Positions 1-5,815 of a stretch of 64,000 nucleotides of DNA are shown here, one piece after another; the first letter of the stretch is position 1; every line of letters begins with the position of its first letter. Source of the stretch: Flavobacteriaceae bacterium (GTDB taxonomy: Bacteria; Bacteroidota; Bacteroidia; Flavobacteriales; Flavobacteriaceae). Where the stretch lies: assembly GCA_003443635.1 (NCBI GenBank), contig CP031964.1, positions 1,768,321-1,832,320 of the forward strand, in the 5' to 3' direction. Below the pieces are notes generated by a model. It did no database searches. It saw only the letters and a list, made by a program, of their open reading frames with translations, and had not been told where the DNA came from. A program made the position numbers and the translations under genes.

Positions 1-7
1 GAAGAAT

Positions 8-42
8 AGACACAATTTGTGAGTGTCTTTAAATGTTCACAG
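8..42 (+). promoter_or_regulatory. Interlocked inverted-repeat element, copy 1, upstream of peptide gene 1
   Basis: Two inverted repeats interleave here. AGACAC (8-13) pairs with GTGTCT (23-28), and TGTGA (18-22) pairs with TCACA (37-41). The order arm1-arm2-arm1'-arm2' is that of an H-type pseudoknot, or of two mutually exclusive hairpins, or of two overlapping protein-binding dyads. A near-identical block lies at 3864-3898, at almost the same distance from the second peptide start (28 versus 29 bases from the last G of TCACAG to the ATG). The conservation of both dyads and spacing is seen directly; the regulatory role is inferred. Confidence 0.6.
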
Positions 43-69
43 CAAATATAATTTATTAATCATTTTATT

Positions 70-288
70 ATGAAAAATTTGAAAAAATTAGGTAAAACCC
101 TAAACAGACAAGAACAAAAAACTATTAATGGAGGAGAGCTTACTATTACACCAACTGGATGTGGTAATAGAACGTGCGGTGTAGGCTGTGCATCTAATCA
201 AGAATGTGTCGAAATTTTCTGTGGCCCTGGCCCCAATGATGTTATATCTTCTGAATTTCAATGCATCAGTATTGTAAATCATAAATAG
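70..288 (+). CDS. Double-glycine-leader secreted peptide precursor 1 (six-Cys core)
   Basis: This 72-residue precursor starts with a 22-residue leader rich in Lys, Leu, Asn and Gln that ends in Gly-Gly (residues 21-22), the cleavage signal of C39 bacteriocin-processing exporters. The 50-residue core has six cysteines spaced C-x4-C-x3-C-x5-C-x4-C-x13-C and no net hydrophobic stretch, so a compact disulfide-bonded secreted peptide is likely. The next gene is a matching exporter, and a homologous precursor lies at 3927. No Ser/Thr dehydratase, radical-SAM or other tailoring gene is nearby. It could be a bacteriocin, a signalling peptide or a toxin; the sequence does not decide. The start is firm because the leader is shared with the second peptide. 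Confidence 0.85.
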   Translation: MKNLKKLGKTLNRQEQKTINGGELTITPTGCGNRTCGVGCASNQECVEIFCGPGPNDVISSEFQCISIVNHK

Positions 289-298
289 TTAACGTTTT

Positions 299-332
299 AA
301 ACTAGTTCAATTTTTTTTGAACTAGTTTTTTA
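299..332 (+). terminator. Rho-independent terminator after peptide gene 1
   Basis: A perfect 12-base stem (AAACTAGTTCAA at 299-310 with TTGAACTAGTTT at 317-328) closes a six-T loop and runs into a T tract. It sits only about 12 bases before the TTG start of the exporter, so it would act as an attenuator that makes peptide transcript exceed exporter transcript. Confidence 0.8.
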
Positions 333-343
333 AATTATATTTT

Positions 344-2536
344 TTGAGATTAAAATTTCCATTTTACAAACAAGCCGAGGCTAAAGACTGTGGCCCTACC
401 TGTATTAAGATCATTGCCAAACATTATGGTAAGACCATTAGTGCACAACAATTACGTGAACTCTCCGAAACCACTCGTGAAGGAAGTAGTTTGCTTGGTC
501 TTAGTGATGCAGTAGAATCTCTTGGCTTTCGCTCTCTTGGAGTGAAACTCTCTTTTGAGAAGTTAAAACAAGCCTCCTTCCCCTGTATTGTACATTGGAA
601 CAAGAACCACTATATCGTGGTCTATAAAATAAAAAAAGATACTGTCTATGTCTCTGATCCTGCTCATGGGCTATTAACATACTCCAAAACTGAGTTTATC
701 AAGTTCTGGATCGGTAACAATGCCAATGACGCTACTGAAGAAGGCATTGCCTTACTCTTAGAACCCACACCCTTGTTCTACAACGAAGAGTTTGATGATG
801 ACAAACAATCCTTTGGCTTTGGATTTATCTTAAAGTATGTCTATAAATACAAACGGTTTGTCGTACAACTAGCCATTGGTCTGCTTGCTGGGAGTCTATT
901 ACAACTCATCTTCCCATTCTTAACTCAAAGTGTGGTCGATGTCGGTATTAAAAATCAAGATCTCAACTTTATCTATCTCGTACTTGCAGCTCAACTCTTC
1001 CTCTTTATTGGTAGAGCTTCCCTGGAAATTATTCGGTCTTGGATTCTTTTGCATCTCAGTACACGTATTAATATCTCTCTGATCTCTGATTTCTTTATAA
1101 AGCTCATGAAACTCCCCATCTCTTTCTTTGATGTACGAATGACAGGGGATCTATTACAACGCATTAACGATCATAAGCGTATTGAAAGGATTCTAACCAC
1201 CTCCTCACTTACCATGTTGTTCTCTTTCTTTAATCTGATCGTCTTTAGTTTTGTGCTGGGCTATTACAGCTTACAAATCTTTAGTGTCTTCTTCTTTGGG
1301 AGTTTACTATATGTTGGATGGGTACTCTTCTTCTTTAAACGTAGAAAAGAACTCGACTACAAACGGTTTCATGAAGTCAGTAACGAGCAGAGTAAGGTCA
1401 TTGAGCTTATCAATGGTATGCAAGAAATTAAACTCCACAATGCTGAAAAACGCATGCGATGGAACTGGGAGTTTGTACAGGCACGCCTCTTTAAGATCTC
1501 TACCAAGAATCTTGTCTTAGAACAAACACAATCCGTAGGATCTAATTTTATTAATGAGCTCAAGAACATGTTCATTACCATTCTCTCTGCTAAGTTAGTG
1601 GTTGATGGAGATATTACGCTGGGGGCCATGCTGGCCATTACCTCTATCGTAGGACAGCTCAATGCGCCTATCAGTCAGCTTATTAGTTTTATGAGAGATG
1701 TCCAAGATGCTAAAATCTCTTTAGATCGTTTAGGAGAAATTCACAATAAAGAGGATGAGGAATTAGCTACTGACGAAAAAGTGAAATCACTCCCTGAGAA
1801 TTCAGGCATTCAACTCAATAATATCTCTTTTAGATATATCGGAAGCTTAGAGCCTGTGATCAAAGGATTGTCCTTAACCATCCCTGCTAATAAAACAACT
1901 GCTATTGTAGGAGTGAGCGGTAGTGGGAAAACCACACTGATGAAACTCTTACTCAGATTCTATGAAGTCGAGAAAGGGGATATATCGATCAATAATTTTA
2001 ATCTCAATAATATCTCTCAAAAGGTATGGCGTGAGCACTGTGGGGTGGTCATGCAAGAGGGGTATATCTTTAATAATACTATTGCTCATAATATTGCAGT
2101 GGGACAGGATTATGTCGATAAAGATAAACTAGCGCATGCTATTGATGTGGCCAACATCTCTGATTATATTGATAATCTCCCCCTGGGGGTGAATACTAAA
2201 ATAGGAACTGAAGGAACAGGTCTTAGTACTGGACAAAAACAGCGTTTGCTTATTGCTAGAGCAGTCTATAAAAATCCGAGATTTCTATTCTTTGATGAAG
2301 CCACCTCGGCATTGGATGCGAATAATGAAACGGTGATCATGAAAAAACTAAATACTTTTTTTAAAGATAAAACGGCTGTAGTGATTGCACACCGATTAAG
2401 TACGGTAAAAAACGCACATCAGATCGTAGTGCTTGATGGAGGAAAGATCGTAGAAATTGGAAATCATCAACAGCTCATTAAACTAAAAGGAAACTATTAC
2501 AACCTAGTCAAAAATCAACTCGAATTGGGTGATTAA
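344..2536 (+). CDS. Peptidase-containing ABC exporter (C39 peptidase + TM + ATPase)
   Basis: This inner-membrane exporter is expected to clip double-Gly leaders in the cytoplasm and pump the core out. The N-terminal C39 domain has the oxyanion Gln10, catalytic Cys16 in DCGPTC, His89 and Asp105, so it should be active. A six-helix membrane domain follows (about 165-450). The ATPase shows Walker A GVSGSGKTT (about 523), signature LSTGQKQR (about 627), Walker B FLFFDEATSALD and the H-loop IAHRLST. The start is TTG at 344, chosen because family members begin with the same (M)xKFPFYKQ sequence just before the catalytic Cys and no ATG lies nearby. The HlyD partner begins 11 bases downstream. The coding sequence is visibly richer in C (ctc, atc, ccc codons) than genes to the right, which hints at transfer. 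Confidence 0.95.
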   Translation: MRLKFPFYKQAEAKDCGPTCIKIIAKHYGKTISAQQLRELSETTREGSSLLGLSDAVESLGFRSLGVKLSFEKLKQASFPCIVHWNKNHYIVVYKIKKDTVYVSDPAHGLLTYSKTEFIKFWIGNNANDATEEGIALLLEPTPLFYNEEFDDDKQSFGFGFILKYVYKYKRFVVQLAIGLLAGSLLQLIFPFLTQSVVDVGIKNQDLNFIYLVLAAQLFLFIGRASLEIIRSWILLHLSTRINISLISDFFIKLMKLPISFFDVRMTGDLLQRINDHKRIERILTTSSLTMLFSFFNLIVFSFVLGYYSLQIFSVFFFGSLLYVGWVLFFFKRRKELDYKRFHEVSNEQSKVIELINGMQEIKLHNAEKRMRWNWEFVQARLFKISTKNLVLEQTQSVGSNFINELKNMFITILSAKLVVDGDITLGAMLAITSIVGQLNAPISQLISFMRDVQDAKISLDRLGEIHNKEDEELATDEKVKSLPENSGIQLNNISFRYIGSLEPVIKGLSLTIPANKTTAIVGVSGSGKTTLMKLLLRFYEVEKGDISINNFNLNNISQKVWREHCGVVMQEGYIFNNTIAHNIAVGQDYVDKDKLAHAIDVANISDYIDNLPLGVNTKIGTEGTGLSTGQKQRLLIARAVYKNPRFLFFDEATSALDANNETVIMKKLNTFFKDKTAVVIAHRLSTVKNAHQIVVLDGGKIVEIGNHQQLIKLKGNYYNLVKNQLELGD

Positions 2537-2547
2537 AATAAAACTAT

Positions 2548-3840
2548 ATGCCAGAAAACAGTCAACACATAGAACTCCGCAGTGAAGAAGTCCAAGAGAT
2601 TCTTGAAGCCACTCCTTCTTGGATGATCCGTTGGGGGAACATCTTAGTATTATCTCTCATCCTGATGTTCCTCTTTATCTCCTGGTTTGTAAAATATCCA
2701 GATATCATTGCATCCCAAGCACTAATCACAACTATAATCCCTCCTCAAAAAGAATATGCCACAATAAACGGTAAAATAGCATCTATTCTGGTCTCTGATA
2801 ATGACACAGTAAGCTCTGGAACTCCTCTTGCCATTCTAGAGAACACAGCTAACTACAATGATGTCTTTCTTCTCAAGTCTATTATAGATACCATTACTGT
2901 TAATAATAAATCCTTTGAGTTCCCTATTGCTTCCATCCCTGTTTTAAACCTAGGAGATATTCAACAAAACTACGCTACCTTTGAACTTGATTTCTTAAGA
3001 TATATCAATAACAAAAAATATCAACCTTTCTCTAATGAAGAAAATGCAAATCTCATCTCTAAAAAAGAACTCACCTTTAGACTACAAGTACAAAAAGCAC
3101 AATACGAATCTGGAAAAGCTGAACTAGCTCTTCAAAAAAAAGATCTTGATCGTAATAAGGATATGTTTAATAAAGGTCTTATTGCTGCTCAAGCTTATGA
3201 GAGAGAAGAGGCTAATTATATTCGAGCTGAAAGTAATTTAACAAGTATTAGCAATTCTATCTCTCAAACCAGAGAGGCCATTAGTAATGCTAATAAAGCA
3301 TCTAAAACCACTACAATTAATAAATCTACAGAAGAGGTGCTGCTATTTAAAACGGCAGTTCAATCATTTAATCAATTAAAACGCGCTATTAAAGATTGGG
3401 AGCTGCGTTATGTCTTACAGTCTAATACTGATGGAAAGGTCTCTTTTTTAAATACATGGACGGTAAATCAAACTGTTAATCAAGGGGATCTGCTTTTTAC
3501 CATTATCCCTAAGGAGAACTCTGCCTATATCGCTAAATTAAAAACACCTGCTCAAAACTCTGGGAAATTAAAAGTGGGACAAAGGGTAAATATTAAATTG
3601 CAAAACTATCCTGATACTGAGTTTGGAACGCTACAAGGGCATATTGAAAGTATTGCTTTATTTCCTGATGAGGAAGGATTGTATCTGGTAAATACCTCTT
3701 TACCTAAAACACTGATCACTTCTTATAAAAAAAAAATCCCTTTTAAACATGAAATGAATGGGAGTGCCGAAATTATTACTGAAGACTTGCGCCTTATTCA
3801 GCGCTTCTTCTCCCAACTTAAAAATGTGTTTAACAACTAA
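2548..3840 (+). CDS. HlyD-family membrane fusion protein for the peptide exporter
   Basis: This periplasmic adaptor should link the ABC exporter at 344 to an outer-membrane channel. It has one N-terminal membrane helix (about residues 30-50), then a biotinyl-lipoyl-like beta domain split by a long alpha-helical hairpin (about 165-275) and a C-terminal beta-barrel region with the pattern LKVGQRVNIKLQNYP. Length (430 aa) is usual for the type-1 secretion adaptors paired with C39 exporters in Bacteroidota. It is in one operon with the exporter. No TolC-like gene lies in the window, so the outer-membrane partner must be encoded elsewhere. The first third of the gene shares the C-rich codon style of the exporter gene. 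Confidence 0.92.
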   Translation: MPENSQHIELRSEEVQEILEATPSWMIRWGNILVLSLILMFLFISWFVKYPDIIASQALITTIIPPQKEYATINGKIASILVSDNDTVSSGTPLAILENTANYNDVFLLKSIIDTITVNNKSFEFPIASIPVLNLGDIQQNYATFELDFLRYINNKKYQPFSNEENANLISKKELTFRLQVQKAQYESGKAELALQKKDLDRNKDMFNKGLIAAQAYEREEANYIRAESNLTSISNSISQTREAISNANKASKTTTINKSTEEVLLFKTAVQSFNQLKRAIKDWELRYVLQSNTDGKVSFLNTWTVNQTVNQGDLLFTIIPKENSAYIAKLKTPAQNSGKLKVGQRVNIKLQNYPDTEFGTLQGHIESIALFPDEEGLYLVNTSLPKTLITSYKKKIPFKHEMNGSAEIITEDLRLIQRFFSQLKNVFNN

Positions 3841-3863
3841 AAATATTCTCTCGCGAGGTAATT

Positions 3864-3898
3864 AGACACAAACTGTGAGTGTCTTTAAATGATCACAG
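3864..3898 (+). promoter_or_regulatory. Interlocked inverted-repeat element, copy 2, upstream of peptide gene 2
   Basis: AGACAC (3864-3869) pairs with GTGTCT (3879-3884), and CTGTGA (3873-3878) pairs with TCACAG (3893-3898). The block matches the one at 8-42 in sequence, arm order and distance to the ATG. Where the two copies differ, the second dyad here is longer by one pair (CTGTGA/TCACAG). I could not fit a convincing -33/-7 promoter to both copies. Confidence 0.6.
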
Positions 3899-3926
3899 AT
3901 TTAAATAATTATTAAATCTTATTATT

Positions 3927-4160
3927 ATGAAAAATTTAAAAAACCTAGGCAAAGCCCTAAACAAAAATGAACAAAAATTAATTAGTGGTGGTTTTGGAGG
4001 GGTACCTATTGCATCTACTTGTGATTACAATTCATTACAATCTTGTTTAAATGCTTGTACACGCCCAGGGACAGAATGTGCTCCTTGCGCTGATAATAAT
4101 CCTACTCCTGGCACTTATGAGTGTAGAGTTAGCGGTTTTATTATACCTTTTGGAAGATAA
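3927..4160 (+). CDS. Double-glycine-leader secreted peptide precursor 2 (six-Cys core)
   Basis: This 77-residue precursor has nearly the same 22-residue leader as the first peptide, ending in Gly-Gly at residues 21-22. Its 55-residue core differs in sequence but again holds six cysteines, C-x7-C-x3-C-x6-C-x2-C-x11-C, closely resembling the spacing in peptide 1. A shared disulfide scaffold with variable loops is therefore likely. The core begins with FGG and is rich in Pro, Thr, Asn and Ala. It follows the HlyD gene by 86 bases, with its own upstream element and its own terminator, so it is probably transcribed separately. Function is unknown; candidates are an antibacterial peptide or a cell-cell signal exported by the system at 344-3840. 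Confidence 0.85.
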   Translation: MKNLKNLGKALNKNEQKLISGGFGGVPIASTCDYNSLQSCLNACTRPGTECAPCADNNPTPGTYECRVSGFIIPFGR

Positions 4161-4179
4161 TAACTTTAAACTGTAATTT

Positions 4180-4210
4180 AAAAGAGAGCAGATATATCTG
4201 CTCTCTTTTT
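4180..4210 (+). terminator. Strong terminator closing the peptide-export island
   Basis: A perfect 30-base palindrome at 4180-4209 (arms AAAAGAGAGCAGATA and its complement) is followed by a T run. It ends the transcript of the second peptide and can also work for minus-strand transcripts. Confidence 0.85.
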
Positions 4211-4276
4211 AGCTTAAAGAATAATTAAAATTAATATTTATTATTATTTTTCCTACATTTAAGCAAACTAATTTTT

Positions 4277-5815
4277 ATGCTTAAAAAAGTTTTTGCTAGC
4301 GCGGTATTTGGAGTAGAAGCTTCAACAATTACAGTAGAAGTTAATGTAGATAAGGGAATTGGGTATCACTTAGTAGGCTTGCCTGATAATGCCATAAAAG
4401 AAAGTAATTATCGTATTGCAGCAGCTCTGCAAAATAATGGATATAAAATTCCTGGTAAAAAAATCACGATTAATATGGCACCAGCAGATTTAAGAAAAGA
4501 GGGAAGTGCTTACGATTTAACTTTAGCAATAGGAATTCTGGCTGCATCTAATCAAATTAATGCAGATAATCTTGAAAATTACCTTATTATGGGAGAATTA
4601 TCTTTAGACGGTAGTTTGAAACCTATTAGAGGAGCTCTTCCTATTGCGGTAAAAGCTAGAGAAGAAGGTTTTAAAGGCTTTATTTTACCAAATCAAAATG
4701 CTAAAGAAGCTGCAATTGTTAATGATTTAAATGTTTACGGTGTAGATACAATTGAACAAGTTATTGATTTTTTTGATAAAGGAAAGTTATTAGAACAAAC
4801 AATTATAGATACACGAGAAGAGTTTTATAAAAGCCTAAATTTCCCTGAATTTGATTTTAGTGATGTTAAAGGACAAGAAAGTATTAAACGTTGTATGGAA
4901 ATTGCTGCAGCTGGAGGACATAATATTATTTTAATAGGACCACCAGGTGCTGGAAAGACAATGCTGGTAAAACGGCTGCCAAGTATTTTACCACCAATGA
5001 CATTACACGAAGCATTAGAAACTACAAAAATTCATTCTGTAGTTGGACGTGTAAAAGAACATACAGGTTTAATGGCACAACGTCCATTTAGAAGCCCACA
5101 TCATACAATTTCTAATGTTGCACTTGTAGGAGGAGGAAGTTACCCGCAACCAGGAGAAATATCACTATCACACAATGGTGTTTTGTTTTTAGATGAATTG
5201 CCAGAATTTAAGCGTGAAGTATTAGAGGTTATGAGGCAACCTTTAGAAGATCGAGAAGTAACTATTTCTAGAGCAAAATTTACAGTAACATACCCATCGT
5301 CGTTCATGTTAGTTGCTAGTATGAATCCAAGTCCGAGTGGTTATTTTAATGACCCTAATGCGCCAGTAACCTCATCTCCAGCAGAAATGCAACGCTATTT
5401 AAGTAAAATTTCAGGCCCTTTATTAGATCGTATTGATATACATATAGAAGTAACACCTGTACCATTTGAAGAATTGTCAAATGAGCGAAAAGGAGAATCA
5501 TCTGTAGAAATTAGAAAACGAGTTACCGCTGCTAGAAAATTGCAAACAAATAGATTTAAAGATTCAGATAAAGTACACTATAACGCTCAAATGAATACAA
5601 AGCAAATTGCTAAGTATTGTGTATTAGATGGTGATTCAAAAGAATTACTTAAAACAGCTATGGAACGTTTAAACCTTTCGGCCAGAGCTTATGATCGTAT
5701 TTTAAAAGTATCTAGAACAATAGCTGATTTAGAAACTTCAGAACATATTTCAAAAGAACATATTTCTGAAGCAATTCAATATAGGAGTTTAGATAGGGAA
5801 GGATGGTTAGGGTAA
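4277..5815 (+). CDS. yifB: YifB/ComM-family Mg-chelatase-like AAA+ ATPase
   Basis: The protein has an N-terminal Lon-protease-like S5 fold domain (about 1-170), an AAA+ Mg-chelatase domain with Walker [11 protein letters not shown] (about 220) and Walker [11 protein letters not shown], and the C-terminal Mg-chelatase helical domain with the [16 protein letters not shown] segment. In Gram-negative bacteria the family member ComM is a hexameric helicase that promotes branch migration during natural transformation, so a role in DNA uptake and recombination is likely but not shown for this phylum. Length (512 aa) is normal. It stands alone between the peptide island and the M16 peptidase. Confidence 0.93.

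Follow-up and report, generated by a model that had tools for sequence, protein, structure and literature searches.

The window analyzed here is a 64,000-nucleotide stretch (C1:1768321-1832320) of the genome of a Flavobacteriaceae bacterium, which consists of a single 3.35-Mb contig (CP031964.1). At its start lies most of a peptide secretion cassette, one of three copies in this genome, which combines an oxidase built of C39-like, VKOR and DsbA-like domains with a C39 peptidase/ABC exporter, an HlyD-type adaptor and small Cys-rich precursor peptides. It is probable, in our assessment, that a shared leader docks the diverse precursors on the oxidase and that they are then exported by the C39 exporter. 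The same leader and 5′ element are found on approximately 20 unlike peptides, and therefore one oxidase and one exporter likely yield many disulfide-locked secreted peptides. The features of this copy (copy A) are listed below, in window positions unless genome positions are stated.

Genome 1765911-1767527, upstream, ending 793 nt before window base 1: partner oxidase (C39-like-VKOR-DsbA), 538 aa, GTG start
Genome 1767645-1767866, outside the window, between the oxidase and precursor 1: precursor A0
1..43, + strand: in-window part of the 5′ element of precursor 1 (full match genome 1768311-1768363, beginning 10 bases before the window; R1 match 3.1e−11; covariation); helices P1, 8-13 with 23-28, and P2, 17-22 with 37-42
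70..288, + strand: precursor 1 (A1), 72 aa, 22-aa Gly-Gly leader and six-Cys core (NF047798, 24.8 bits)
344..2536, + strand: C39 peptidase/ABC exporter (PCAT type), TTG start, copy A of three (Pfam domains, alignment)
2548..3840, + strand: HlyD-type periplasmic adaptor (profile matches)
3845..3899, + strand: 5′ element of precursor 2, hairpin and pseudoknot (R1 match 3.8e−10); helices P1, 3864-3869 with 3879-3884, and P2, 3873-3878 with 3893-3898
3927..4160, + strand: precursor 2 (A2), 77 aa, 22-aa Gly-Gly leader and six-Cys core (leader profile)

A shared leader on many Cys-rich cores

An original prediction, made from the window sequence, had described two small open reading frames (ORFs) with 22-residue Gly-Gly leaders and six Cys per core, accompanied by a C39 exporter and an HlyD adaptor, and ORF and profile checks confirmed all of these. 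A leader profile built from 17 precursors identified 20 in the genome, divided equally between the cassettes and other sites (10 each, the latter termed orphans); precursor 2 (E value, 7.7e−17) was itself among the 17 rows. The 20 precursors have one leader in common, and their cores share little besides Cys. The NCBIfam model NF047798 (leader_Chryseo) scored precursor 1 above its curated cutoff of 23.5 bits, did not match precursor 2, and matched 7 of the 17 own precursors at E 0.1, which is an E threshold and not the curated cutoff. A search of 5.8 billion proteins with precursor 1, word-based and restricted to relatives sharing 5-residue words, recovered only itself out of two candidates. 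The search for leaders genome-wide and in relatives that the original prediction proposed was productive, as a leader profile identified a total of 418 precursors across 78 oxidase loci of relatives, the sister genome G001 and the three own loci. At least one precursor was present in 72 of the 78 loci, with a maximum of 21 in one locus.

Cys accounts for 12.5% of residues in the cores, 0.04% in the leaders and 0.8% in the remaining proteins encoded at the 78 loci. The mean core charge is −1.5. Cys counts were made after removal of the duplicate G001 locus L137 (two rows). Of 403 unique cores, 371 had an even number of Cys, 31 an odd number, and one had no Cys and was excluded from the even counts. 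The bias persisted when one core per cluster was taken (116 even versus 9 odd of 126) and in relatives alone (362 even versus 28 odd of 391 unique cores, 390 of them Cys-bearing), and seven residues other than Cys showed no even-count bias. Even counts are best explained by full pairing of Cys within each peptide, as far as sequence can indicate, and Cys parity in relatives together with the oxidase lends support to the earlier proposal of disulfide-stabilized exported peptides.

The own genome weighs against this reading. Eight of its 20 precursors have odd Cys counts and 12 even, with even counts in 8 of 10 cassette precursors versus 4 of 10 orphans, and it differs from the relatives (p, 1e−4), whose cores all lie within ∼10 kb of an oxidase. 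Possible accounts of the own orphans are that they are decaying, that their Cys pair between chains, or that the disulfide reading does not hold for them. A five-Cys core family (CAEVCPTAT...KCGPPHCPGVCDGRGG) keeps its odd count in loci L082, L083, L088, L095 and L102, and is possibly a dimer.

The Cys spacings of the two window peptides were as first reported (4,3,5,4,13 in precursor 1 and 7,3,6,2,11 in precursor 2). The conserved Cys frame drawn from them fits 2 of the 189 unique six-Cys cores, both being its source peptides; 125 different spacings occur among the 189, and 56 cluster representatives have 56 different spacings. Comparison of core Cys spacing, as the original prediction had advised, thus yielded no common frame, and a shared frame was rejected. 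An adjacent third and fourth Cys (C-C-CC-C-C) is typical of many knottins. This arrangement was present in 44 of the 189 six-Cys cores and absent from both window peptides; one such family of relatives was modeled, and its pLDDT of 61.8 was too low to read, so the model was not used. With no common frame, no adjacent pair in the window peptides and the low core substitution ratios given below, a knottin-like family with hypervariable loops was not borne out. As first noted, no immunity gene is evident: inspection by eye of families present in at least 4 of the 78 loci, covering ORFs of at least 90 residues, revealed none. Lanthipeptide enzymes were not found among the genes scanned at the locus nor, by eye, among recurrent families, although no search was aimed at them.

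Core evolution was assessed between pairs of species using the ratio of nonsynonymous to synonymous substitution (dN/dS). The closely related Tenacibaculum discolor and Tenacibaculum larymnensis, with 19 and 20 precursors, respectively, shared 13 reciprocal pairs, which gave a pooled core dN/dS of 0.06 and kept 72 of 72 core Cys; the remaining precursors had no counterpart. In six further species pairs, the ratio ranged from 0.13 to 0.26; another showed no amino acid change in the core, and one more lacked any reciprocal pair. Only pairs with at least 50% core identity were admitted, which favors low values, so faster-evolving cores could be missed. Within this limit, comparison of the sequences indicates that the cores are under purifying selection and that the repertoire turns over through gene gain and loss. 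Hypervariability of cores by point mutation was unsupported, given values of 0.06 to 0.26 in seven species pairs within the 50% identity limit.

A predicted cytoplasmic oxidase beside every exporter copy

The original prediction had stated that no tailoring enzyme is present. The VKOR/DsbA-type oxidase, which ends just outside the window, adjoins every exporter copy and overturns this statement. Its VKOR domain (PF07884) scored 46 bits against a cutoff of 27.5, and the VKOR residues C195, C205, C275 and C278 were kept in 74 of 74 aligned oxidases, whose C39-like domain has no conserved Cys. Structurally, the folds matched the VKOR-thioredoxin enzymes 3kp9 and 4nv2 and the C39 domain seen in PCAT1/LahT (6v9z and 6mpz). 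As in the Synechococcus VKOR represented by 3kp9 and 4nv2, four VKOR Cys and a thioredoxin-fold CxxC lie on one chain; unlike it, the oxidase carries an N-terminal C39-like domain and one extra membrane helix, which in the model predicts the opposite orientation. PCAT1 and LahT resemble the exporter in having a C39 domain with active-site residues, and the oxidase N-terminal domain shares the same fold but differs in being joined to VKOR and in lacking a conserved Cys.

VKOR-thioredoxin fusions have five helices, and the VKOR family active site faces the periplasm or lumen; helix count and charge in this oxidase predict the opposite. The structure model has six helices, and averaged hydrophobicity gave six peaks, one of them broken up. 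In the model, the catalytic loops and the C39-like and DsbA domains are all on one side of the membrane. Across regions chosen from the structure model, the catalytic side contained 16.0 Lys plus Arg (K+R) per protein over ∼93 residues versus 1.0 over ∼32 residues on the opposite side, and the catalytic side had the greater K+R density in 74 of 74 sequences. In 11 of 11 more divergent rows, the K+R content of that side was also the larger. The segment between helices 2 and 3 contains, as judged from one weak alignment, a KRWRW stretch in Synechococcus VKOR, versus a mean of 0.18 K+R in this family. Because of the six helices, the one-sided K+R distribution and the positive-inside rule, the active sites are predicted to face the cytoplasm. 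Hatahet and Ruddock reportedly worked on inverted VKOR in 2013.

A scan of named genomes for the oxidase, taking the best 80 of 81 matches, gave the 78 loci, which are mainly from Tenacibaculum, Aquimarina, Winogradskyella and other Flavobacteriaceae, with some from Roseivirga and Bacteroidales. An exporter was located near the oxidase in 54 of the 78 and an HlyD gene in 53; contig ends cut several others. In a sample of 395 genomes from the phylum, the oxidase profile matched 40, the matches in G281 and G362 omitting the C39-like part. In G001, two more exporters (loci L138 and L139) adjoin redoxin/thioredoxin-domain proteins, and L138 also has a VKOR fusion alongside. Neither the C39-VKOR-DsbA fusion nor the 5′ element appeared in the titles and abstracts surveyed or in passages of PMC6671954, PMC10352776, PMC5524665, PMC2864571, PMC9723704, PMC4555120 and PMC4727284.

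A 5′ element with a predicted pseudoknot

The element comprises 53 nt, in which a hairpin is followed by two interleaved helices, P1 (AGACAC/GTGTCT) and P2 (e.g., CTGTGA/TCACAG), predicted to form an H-type pseudoknot shape. It precedes 19 of the 20 own precursors as a block ending ∼20 to 30 nt 5′ of the ATG, and the twentieth has a diverged form. A geometric scan detected such a knot (score of at least 15) before 9 of the 10 precursors in the own cassettes and 157 of the 406 other precursors, compared with 6 of 416 shuffled controls. Across the 78 loci, a sequence-only profile identified 221 copies. For 195 of them, a called precursor starts 10 to 49 nt downstream, such that 195 of 404 precursors in relatives' loci are preceded by the element. 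By eye, many of the other 26 matches lie before apparent missed or broken precursors and a few before unrelated proteins of 145 and 200 residues. Presence varied with the gap to the preceding gene, from 0 of 121 at <30 nt to 149 of 190 at 60 to 150 nt.

Covariation was scored on alignment A6 (59 rows), made by adding 9 of the 20 own elements to a 50-row set from which near-duplicates, minus-strand matches and nhmmer matches short of the model 3′ part had been excluded; about a dozen rows off register by one column were retained. The score was 0.289 versus 0.187 for shuffled alignments (0 of 500 reached it) and ≤0.091 for slid versions, bearing in mind that related rows can outscore shuffles without real structure. 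On this alignment, G-U pairs outnumbered A-C mismatches in P2 by just 24 to 17. In 124 distinct profile-aligned rows, the fraction of paired cells was 98.3% for P1 and 98.9% for P2, P2 was perfect in 103 rows (shuffled mean, 68.6; maximum, 82), and G-U exceeded A-C by 54 to 9 in P1 and P2. The hairpin is the weakest part of the element, its outer two pairs forming in 67% of cells. Searched against Rfam 15, the elements within window 1-4400 matched nothing at E values up to 5, and the three own loci and five relatives' loci gave no match at gathering score.

A model that includes P1 identified 21 sites in the own genome, of which 19 belong to precursors (one of these at E 0.28), another to a divergent precursor and the last to no precursor. 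That last site (genome 3270453-3270505, L187) lies before a 382-residue membrane protein that appears M56/BlaR1-like by eye. Model matches were inspected in two sets. The first (n = 14, three own) had 11 before precursors and 3 not; in the second, all 14 were before precursors, some with new leader types, with genomes G205 and G423 of this set sharing peptides with loci used to build the model. Under strict filters, 6 of the 395 phylum genomes carried the element, and the oxidase was present in 6 of 6 (p, 7.5e−6 without the own genome). Among close relatives with the element, the own genome left out, the oxidase was found in only 2 of 6 (p, 0.08).

Three cassette copies with precursor slots

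The exporter carries Peptidase_C39, ABC_membrane and ABC_tran domains on a single chain (Pfam scores of 125.5, 113.7 and 99.9 bits, respectively). Its active site is intact, as originally described, with Cys16, His89 and Asp105, catalytic by C39 motifs, kept in 55 of 55 aligned sequences including the own. The exporter had been called private to the two window peptides, a term that does not hold for a gene present in three genome copies with 100, 100 and 99% protein identity. Of 38 exporter matches in the own genome, just these 3 have a C39 domain, the other 35 starting after it.

The copies are located at 1.77 Mb (A, in the window), 0.75 Mb (B) and 3.14 Mb (C), each in the order oxidase, slot 1, exporter, slot 2, HlyD, slot 3. 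Precursors occupy slots 1 and 3 in copy A, all three in copy B and slot 2 only in copy C. Homology between copies ends near gene ends, except at some precursors, where it continues across the 5′ element and the leader. Synonymous distances between A and B were 0.003 for the oxidase, 0.008 for the exporter and 0.138 for HlyD, in a comparison made without the copy C exporter. The HlyD value, set against those of the other two genes, suggests that the copies were probably partly exchanged after duplication; a clean recent triplication was judged insufficient, the HlyD distance being far from the oxidase and exporter values. The upstream neighbors of copy C match those of the closest copy in G001, and the flanks of copies A and B had no match in the G001 stretches compared. 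In copy A, the DNA 5′ of precursor 1 (genome 1767867-1768310, between A0 and A1) resembles the exporter 3′ end and is adjoined, just before the precursor 1 element, by a decayed precursor-like reading frame. From this sequence trace, a slot 2 precursor was likely copied into slot 1.

Other features and neighboring genes

Two terminator-like hairpins were noted in copy A.

299..328, + strand: terminator-like hairpin separating precursor 1 from the exporter; weak, because the hairpin scan gave 3 sites versus 2.5 expected in shuffles
4183..4210, + strand: terminator-like hairpin followed by a T run, 3′ of precursor 2; seen by eye and absent from the hairpin scan output

At window 4277-5815, 3′ of the cassette, lies a ComM-like Mg chelatase gene (by eye); an Mg-chelatase-like gene is near the oxidase, on the opposite strand, in 4 of the 78 relatives' loci. 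Upstream of cassette A (L011; genome 1762226-1764836) are a TPR histidine kinase and a LytTR response regulator, and a similar-looking response-regulator family (by eye) occurs in 10 of the 78 loci. Upstream of cassette C (L013; genome 3132000-3151000) are a TPR-CHAT protein (CHAT, 181.5 bits) and, by eye, a sigma/anti-sigma-like pair, families that recur in 22 to 23 of the 78 loci. CHAT is a caspase-like protease, here adjoining a peptide secretion cassette.

Proposed mechanism and alternatives

In the mechanism we favor, the C39-like domain of the oxidase, having no conserved Cys, would hold the leader without cutting it, the DsbA-like domain would oxidize the core Cys, and the VKOR part would hand the electrons to quinone. 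With six membrane helices, the C39-like domain, the DsbA domain and the VKOR cysteines would all face the cytoplasm, and folding would therefore precede export. The intact C39 domain of the exporter would then cut after Gly-Gly, with export through HlyD and an unlinked outer membrane channel. The 5′ pseudoknot may set joint precursor expression via mRNA stability or translation, and a single machine could serve ∼20 cores, including the 10 encoded outside the cassettes. The most likely targets of the mature peptides are other cells, with competing bacteria as the first candidates. More tentatively, the oxidase may represent a cytoplasmic leader-guided disulfide synthase, in which a protease-dead C39-like dock and an inverted VKOR-DsbA would fold many interchangeable cores, unrelated in sequence, ahead of export. 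The precursor genes would share a tag in the form of an RNA pseudoknot class that has no name yet.

Prochlorosins are made by one enzyme set from precursors with a conserved leader and many unrelated cores, some encoded away from the enzyme, and contain lanthionine rings. The logic here is similar, but predicted disulfides replace the lanthionine rings. Among the systems compared, the closest is that of the bacteroidetocins (class IIf), for which passages of PMC6671954 describe a 15- to 16-residue Gly-Gly leader, a PCAT, a thiol oxidoreductase whose loss attenuates activity, and self-inhibition with no immunity protein found. We compared leader length, Cys, charge and gene content. Both systems occur in Bacteroidetes and have a Gly-Gly leader, a small Cys-bearing core, a PCAT exporter and a thiol oxidoreductase in the region. 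Bacteroidetocins, in the same passages, have related cores (A and B with four Cys) and a separate five-transmembrane protein, and HlyD is unmentioned there; the system described here has a 22-residue leader, many unlike cores, mostly anionic, a C39-like-VKOR-DsbA fusion, HlyD and an RNA element. Because leader length, relatedness of cores, charge and gene content differ, it was not filed as a bacteroidetocin. That the precursors are nonetheless multiplied ordinary class II bacteriocins of this kind, each core killing related bacteria and the producer having no immunity gene, comes close to an even proposition without quite reaching it: the shared properties just listed and the lack of an immunity protein in bacteroidetocins fit, as does the "bacteriocin-like" label that NCBIfam gives leader 1, but the longer leader, the lack of a shared core, a mean charge of −1.5 versus +2 and +6 in bacteroidetocins A and B, and 125 spacings in 189 six-Cys cores do not. 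It is improbable that the peptides are metal-binding or structural surface components, neither weapons nor signals. Their abundant Cys, anionic cores and the lack of a noticed immunity-like family among ORFs of at least 90 residues are compatible with such a role, but even Cys counts and many spacings suit disulfides better than a fixed metal site.

The site of oxidation and the nature of the 5′ element admit other accounts as well. With conventional topology, the precursor would be cut, exported reduced and then oxidized by the VKOR-DsbA domains in the periplasm. Known VKOR-thioredoxin and DsbA enzymes, whose folds are matched here, act outside the cytoplasm, as would be expected from this order of events. 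The thiol oxidoreductase of bacteroidetocin regions, the deletion of which attenuates toxin activity (PMC6671954), also agrees with it. We regard it as unlikely given the additional helix before VKOR, a 125-residue folded domain that precedes the first helix and leaves no space for a signal peptide, and the catalytic-side K+R excess in every aligned sequence. Somewhat less likely again is that the 5′ element works as DNA, being a double-stranded operator or an alternative-sigma promoter through which one regulator switches all precursors transcriptionally. Its TCGCGA core is palindromic, sigma/anti-sigma-like proteins of 188 and 266 residues (by eye) are encoded near cassette C with such families in 22 of 78 loci, and the P2 ratio on A6, where some rows are off register, was only 24 to 17. 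Against this, the two interleaved helices covary, the G-U excess in the 124 rows is one that a double-stranded site would not favor, and the precursor 2 element starts 4 nt after the HlyD stop codon, within the cassette.

Implications

Reading the leader and oxidase together links four features that are separate in annotation: small ORFs without a name, the "vitamin K epoxide reductase" gene, the C39 exporter and the 5′ RNA element. The oxidase set is broad in the phylum, and some loci hold ∼20 precursors. If the proposed mechanism is true, leader and oxidase would serve as a general tag for bacterial disulfide-rich peptides, and the RNA element would find precursors with new leaders. An inverted VKOR-DsbA would then operate in the reducing cytoplasm, and a cytoplasmic leader-guided synthase would extend the prochlorosin principle to disulfides.

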